The notes below the pieces were generated by a model that searched no databases, was not told the origin of the DNA, and saw nothing but the letters and a program-made list of their open reading frames with translations. Made by a program: the position numbers and the translations under genes. A stretch of DNA of 64,000 nucleotides from Roseburia sp. (GTDB lineage Bacteria; Bacillota; Clostridia; Lachnospirales; Lachnospiraceae). Shown here piece by piece: positions 53,463 through 54,021 of the stretch. The stretch is from assembly GCA_022771695.1 (NCBI GenBank), contig JALEKJ010000046.1, forward strand, positions 1 through 64,000, given 5' to 3'. Position 1 is the stretch's first letter; each line of letters begins with the position of its first letter.

Positions 53463-53520
53463 CACATCTTTTCCGTAAATTGTTGTTACAAATGTATGAA
53501 ATATGGTATAATGTCGTAAA

Positions 53521-53606
53521 AGCAATGAGCAGTGCCAAAACGTGCAGAGGCAATTTGACGGCTTGCCGGCAAAGGTGGCTGTGTCCGTTTTGATAGGGCG
53601 AATGCC
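53521..53606 (+). promoter_or_regulatory. candidate structured leader RNA element, copy B (5'UTR of the PilZ gene)
   Basis: TATAAT at 53507-53512, then AGCAATGAGCAGTGC[CAAAACG...CGTTTTG]ATAGGGCGAATGCC; matches the element at 1632-1718. Confidence 0.6.
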
Positions 53607-53682
53607 TACGAGCGAGATGGAGCAAAGCGTCATCGAGCGTACACTGCGTATTTCGAGACGAATCTATAACGGAGGAGAAGCG

Positions 53683-54021
53683 ATGGAGGAGAGAAGACGG
53701 AATCTTAGAACAGAGCTACACGCAGAACTGTTGATGAAGCGACTTGACCGAGGCGGTGGAGAAGAGAAGGTTGAAATCAAGGTTTGTGATGTATCTAAGA
53801 CAGGGATTGGGTTTGTCTGTGCAGAAGAGTTAGAGAAAGGCTCGTTGTATGAGTGTTTCCTGACAATCTGGACGAAGGAAGTAATCCGTTGTTTTATCGA
53901 AATTGTGCGCGGTGAGAAGCGTGACGATGGATATCGTTATGGAGCCACTTTTGTCGGCATGACAGAGATGGATGCATATCGAATTCAGGTTTACCAGACT
54001 GTAGAGGAATATAAAGGATAA
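53683..54021 (+). CDS. PilZ-domain (c-di-GMP-binding) protein
   Basis: N-terminal RRRNLR, VCDVSKTGIGF (D/NxSxxG motif), YRYGATFVGM. Confidence 0.85.
   Translation: MEERRRNLRTELHAELLMKRLDRGGGEEKVEIKVCDVSKTGIGFVCAEELEKGSLYECFLTIWTKEVIRCFIEIVRGEKRDDGYRYGATFVGMTEMDAYRIQVYQTVEEYKG

Follow-up and report, generated by a model that had tools for sequence, protein, structure and literature searches.

A dispersed four-way-junction RNA read into downstream genes of the Lachnospiraceae

An element that precedes a PilZ-domain gene and, in a weaker copy, a pfkB-family kinase gene is best explained as one copy of a structured RNA, dispersed among the Lachnospiraceae and acting in cis, that is read in the sense of the gene downstream. 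Both copies are found in the window, the whole 64,000-nucleotide stretch of Roseburia sp. DNA analysed here. A sequence-only reading of the window had drawn attention to two blocks shared by the two loci, each pair following a TATAAT box and enclosing an interior helix, and had proposed a conserved structured leader RNA starting at the predicted +1. Both copies, both boxes, both blocks and the interior helix were recovered where it had placed them, each block occurring exactly twice in the window, and the proposal of such an RNA is supported. No third match to either block was found in the window, even at three mismatches (the shuffle means with three mismatches allowed were 0.45 and 0.16 for the two blocks). 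Judged on sequence, chance cannot account for the likeness, because two exact 16-17-mers recur at matched spacing. The features of the two loci are as follows.

53483-53512, + strand: promoter of the PilZ copy (TTGTTA 53483-53488, TG 53504-53505, TATAAT 53507-53512)
53521-53647, + strand: complete four-way-junction element, PilZ copy (105.8 bits with covariance model R1, E 2.4e-24)
53521-53528, + strand: conserved single-stranded 5' end AGCAATGA at the predicted +1 of the PilZ copy
53529-53534, + strand: 5' arm of P1 (GCAGTG), PilZ copy
53536-53592, + strand: P2, the long variable arm with a CTTG cap, PilZ copy
53596-53607, + strand: P3 hairpin GGGC-GAAT-GCCT, PilZ copy
53608-53640, + strand: P4 arm with GA/GA internal mismatches, PilZ copy
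53642-53647, + strand: 3' arm of P1 (CACTGC), PilZ copy, left out of the sequence-only reading
53671-53677, + strand: free Shine-Dalgarno sequence GGAGGAG of the PilZ gene
53683-54021, + strand: PilZ-domain gene, 112 aa (Pfam PF07238, E 6.3e-8)
1726-1731, - strand: TATAAT of the pfkB copy
1592-1718, - strand: second, weaker copy of the element, at pfkB (R1, 66.3 bits, E 1.9e-14)
632-1564, - strand: pfkB-family carbohydrate kinase gene (Pfam PF00294, E 1.4e-37)

The element does not end at 53606, as had been thought, but extends to 53647, since GCAGTG (53529-53534) pairs with CACTGC (53642-53647). The full unit of about 127 nt folds as a four-way junction of the arms P1, P2, P3 and P4. On folding, the 5' block GCAGTGCC pairs with GGCACTGC about 110 nt downstream to form P1; the interior is P2, a long and fast-evolving arm, followed by the small hairpin P3 (GGGC-GAAU-GCCC) and then by the P4 arm. 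The 3' block, described earlier as a conserved terminal block, forms a hairpin of its own, P3 (GGGC-GAAU-GCCU in the PilZ copy, 53596-53607).

The shape of this RNA has clearly been kept by evolution. Among 59 copies found by pattern, the two arms of P2 pair within their own copy with a mean duplex energy of -30.5 kcal/mol, against -11.3 when arms are combined across copies. Since the first pattern searches required the blocks, the block conservation seen in them was circular, and the analysis was repeated with a covariance model. In the 93 homologs found by the model all four arms covary, with standard pairs in 87.9% of pair cells against 64.2% in shuffles, a percentage biased towards structure by the fitting of the alignment to the model, and with changes on both sides of the pair in 1041 cells against 315. 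The pairing signal collapses when partners are slid by 1-3 columns. Two-sided changes occur in every arm, P1 included (A-U to C-G in 18 copies), and the compensatory changes in P1 and P3 are independent of the first search, which had imposed sequence there. The helix closing the interior, first seen in two copies, thus shows strong covariation across homologs. Several unpaired stretches are conserved as well, namely AAUGA before P1, GAUA between P2 and P3, the GAA of the P3 loop and the A between P3 and P4, and a GGAGUA-like stretch is often present 3' of P1. An upstream open reading frame at the conserved AUGA was rejected, since several copies have UUG, CUG or ACG in place of the AUG.

The pfkB copy is a weak, degraded member of the family. 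It scores 66 bits with R1 against 106 for the PilZ copy, carries one mismatch in P1, has a P2 own-arm duplex of -11.5 kcal/mol against the family mean of -30.5, and its minimum-free-energy fold lacks the four-way junction. Directly upstream of it, at 1725-1889 of the window, lies a 77-bp tandem repeat (2.1 copies, 97% match), each unit of which contains TATAATG and the palindrome TATAATGTCGACAGACATTATA; palindromic promoter-like pieces resembling this repeat were found after element copies at loci L068 and L101. Divergent from pfkB, a T-box leader at 2039-2394 of the window falls short of the Rfam cut-off of 93 bits with a score of 60.9, and the gene downstream of it looks like an asparaginyl/aspartyl-tRNA synthetase.

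The exact two-block pattern occurs four times in this genome, in 6 of 40 genomes of the same genus, and in 50 stretches of named genomes, including Roseburia inulinivorans, a metagenome-assembled genome named R. hominis, Hespellia and Coprococcus catus. The covariance model R1, built from 26 copies, reaches much further. It finds 15 copies of at least 64 bits in this genome, and 34 of 62 genomes of the genus have matches, as many as 30 in a single genome, as do 70 of 150 Lachnospiraceae genera; outside the family only two genomes of a class-wide sample of 196 had any. A leader shared by PilZ and pfkB, as originally envisaged, is not supported, given these 15 copies and the hundreds in the family, which stand before unrelated genes. 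A plasmid or viral origin was rejected, as no plasmid matched and viral contigs gave no exact match. Gut phage records gave two weak matches, one of which is a full copy at 100.6 bits (MT835504.1, locus L290, 1514-1640), accompanied by a partial tandem repeat.

Of the genus copies found by the covariance model and having a callable downstream gene, 79 of 84 point into that gene, a count in which a few exceptions may be wrong because genes were called as simple open reading frames, while the upstream genes face both ways. In the pattern-found set, with PilZ corrected by hand, the figure is 51 of 52. A randomly oriented repeat was therefore rejected for this subfamily within the genus. In class 1, to which both window copies belong, TATAAT (at least five of six positions) lies 12-16 nt before the motif in 58 copies, the commonest distances being 13 and 15 nt; 41 of the 58 have a TG extension, and the -35 is weak (TTG 17 nt upstream). 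At the PilZ copy an extended -10 (TGG-TATAAT) is accompanied by TTGTTA 18 nt upstream. From this spacing, the TG and the weak -35, class-1 transcription would be predicted to start at the motif's own 5' end. Class-2 copies have no TATAAT box and start within a few nucleotides of the stop codon of an upstream co-directional gene (hprK, several ABC transporter genes, a semialdehyde dehydrogenase gene and others). A third placement, directly after intrinsic terminators, is found mostly outside the genus and is common there. In these genomes outside the genus the share pointing into the downstream gene drops to 30 of 38, and in one distant copy the element comes after a 5S rRNA gene.

The element had not been recognised as a named class and was put forward as a candidate undescribed RNA. 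Rfam scans at lax thresholds, run on the entire window and on many copies, returned only sub-threshold matches to Clostridiales-1 (RF01699) and meaningless microRNA hairpin matches, so that no family stands above its cut-off, but the resemblance to Clostridiales-1 makes 'undescribed' only partly true. On the window copies RF01699 is far below its cut-off or unreported (17.8 bits for the PilZ copy, against a gathering cut-off of 48), and the best subfamily copies reach 34.9-38.5. Both RNAs have a four-way junction and a long variable arm capped by GCUUGC, and both occur in many copies within the same genus, frequently right behind a stop codon, in gut Clostridia. The element differs in that its P3 is a 4-bp GAAU hairpin and not a long arm, in its P1 and joining sequences, and in having its own -10 box. 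R1 also picks up some RF01699 members (E 1e-8 to 4e-6), those at L030, L033 and L034, which follow a gene whose C-terminal sequence reads as groEL; it does not pick up canonical members. The element thus appears to be a related variant of Clostridiales-1 and not a member. In a test of common ancestry by reciprocal profile detection, bridging members were detected both ways and canonical ones were not, and a long hairpin by itself can score with microRNA models too. Weinberg et al. (2010; PMC2864571) marked Clostridiales-1 'y' as an RNA, 'n' as cis-regulatory and 'n' as a switch, and its Rfam type is sRNA. The RF01699 model covers several things, including a MITE of about 50 copies with target-site duplications in one genome. 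This is the same-genus genome G026, where about 50 matches (L102-L121) have the ends GTAACAGTTCAGCC/GGCTGAACTGTTAC, with terminal inverted repeats and target duplications of about 8 bp, and lie in both orientations. An RF01699-type four-armed element also stands 1 nt 3' of the stop codon of the groEL-like gene (by the C-terminal reading) in several species (L030, L033, L034 and L132).

The downstream genes, which start at a median distance of 92 nt from the motif, comprise at least 35 different Pfam types with no common pathway. Among them are genes for PilZ, the pfkB-type kinase, an M18 aminopeptidase, galE, Hsp33, GreA and HPF; trigger factor, nrdD, aroA, murA, hisB, holA, mutS2, ileS and CheV; and response regulators and glycosidases. 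A link to c-di-GMP by way of PilZ was rejected, as the other downstream genes share no pathway. A terminator-like site between the motif and the start codon was found in only 1 of 58 copies, and predicted accessibility of the Shine-Dalgarno sequence was unaffected by the motif (0.56 against 0.57). The absence of a common pathway together with that of a terminator or Shine-Dalgarno switch argues against a classical riboswitch, and the earlier expectation of a probable ligand riboswitch also sits poorly with a second placement class at upstream stop codons. The junction architecture and the conserved joining segments just after +1 do recall a metabolite riboswitch, but the placements of classes 2 and 3 and the 15-30 copies per genome do not; a switch for a specific ligand is unlikely, and we give the metabolite riboswitch hardly any credence. 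The conserved unpaired AAUGA, GAUA and GAA loop, and broad housekeeping targets such as GreA, HPF, trigger factor, Hsp33 and ileS, could instead be those of a protein-binding leader serving a global regulon through an RNA-binding protein or a ribosome-associated factor; that reading comes without a candidate protein and with targets that differ between species, and is rather improbable. A processed small RNA, for which the downstream gene would be merely a convenient end, has in its favor the class-1 promoter and the Rfam typing of RF01699, but no terminator follows the element and the downstream gene is nearly always co-directional, which leaves it very unlikely.

The element spreads between genes as a small unit beginning near the extended -10 box. 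In one genome, different genes have near-identical copies ahead of them, and the homology of these copies runs from near the -10 to just past P1. Five relatives share the synteny of the PilZ locus, all with an empty orthologous site, and the 3' half is partly tandem-duplicated in several copies. All of this would be expected of a non-autonomous, MITE-like mobile DNA element, mainly selfish, whose palindromic arms serve transposition. Left ends at -10 boxes, stop codons and terminators, the MITE called by the RF01699 model in one same-genus genome, and fast gain and loss are compatible with it too, and the sense orientation would then result from insertion into melted promoter or terminator DNA or from the purging of harmful orientations, and not from a function for the host gene. 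Bacterial MITE and REP-type repeats (PMC10969869) are likewise short, palindromic, dispersed and gained in particular lineages, but the element differs from them in its lock on the sense orientation and its compensatory evolution in place. Moreover, at the empty PilZ site and between near-identical copies of this subfamily neither target-site duplication nor long inverted repeat was seen, and no transposase was linked to the element. In several species class-2 copies are retained at orthologous sites, and comparison of the orthologs gives 2-17 double-compensated pairs to 0-3 single-sided changes. Such a preponderance argues for selection on the fold in place, which decaying insertions would not show. 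We hold the mainly selfish reading to be unlikely, though by no means negligible. A mobile repeat unconnected to 5' UTRs, named in advance as a possible refutation, is right about the spreading, yet the copies, in sense orientation, keep to the starts and boundaries of genes, and the element is taken to be both mobile and functional. The orthologous-site copies are not always mutual nearest relatives by P3-P4 and may have been replaced by other copies. The tandem-duplicated P3-P4-P1' half was seen at L007, L074, L078, L081, L097 and L286.

What the element does we infer from its structure and placement. Ranked ahead of the mainly selfish element, and favoured tentatively, is a cis-acting RNA at 5' ends or between cistrons that would protect the downstream mRNA or position its processing, possibly with a protein partner. 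It would act within the mRNA and need no specific ligand. A folded knot at the start of a primary transcript, or at the 5' end left by a cut close to the upstream stop codon, would shield the downstream cistron from 5'-end-dependent decay of the RNase J/Y type or position such processing, and a bound protein might read the conserved AAUGA, GAUA and GGAGUA segments. The stabilising role is suggested by analogy with 5' stem-loops, of which that of the B. subtilis aprE leader is named as important for mRNA stability in the title of ref. 109 in PMC3997798; in both, structure lies near the 5' end and the identity of the gene is irrelevant, while the element is a four-way junction of about 127 nt with conserved sequence and also occurs within operons. 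Against a plain stabiliser, the conserved unpaired nucleotides go beyond its needs, and the eight single-stranded nucleotides before P1 are not ideal for blocking 5'-end entry. The leader reading as such is opposed by the distant genomes, where some copies follow terminators and the share facing into the downstream gene is only 30 of 38. It is also possible, though doubtful, that family-wide small structured RNA cassettes copy themselves onto gene boundaries along the direction of transcription, by transcription-coupled insertion at -10 boxes, stop codons and terminators, and are then maintained as cis-acting leaders.

A structured RNA thus stands at the start of central genes in about half of the sampled Lachnospiraceae genera, with up to 30 copies per genome. 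If it controls the life or processing of mRNA, it would be a major layer of expression in dominant gut bacteria and a ready-made part for engineering them; a transcription-oriented mobile element would represent a new mode of insertion. Should the cassette reading be true, gene expression throughout the gut Lachnospiraceae would be rewired by mobile RNA parts. In either case, defined loci now allow tests of what Clostridiales-1 type RNAs do, a function left unassigned since 2010.
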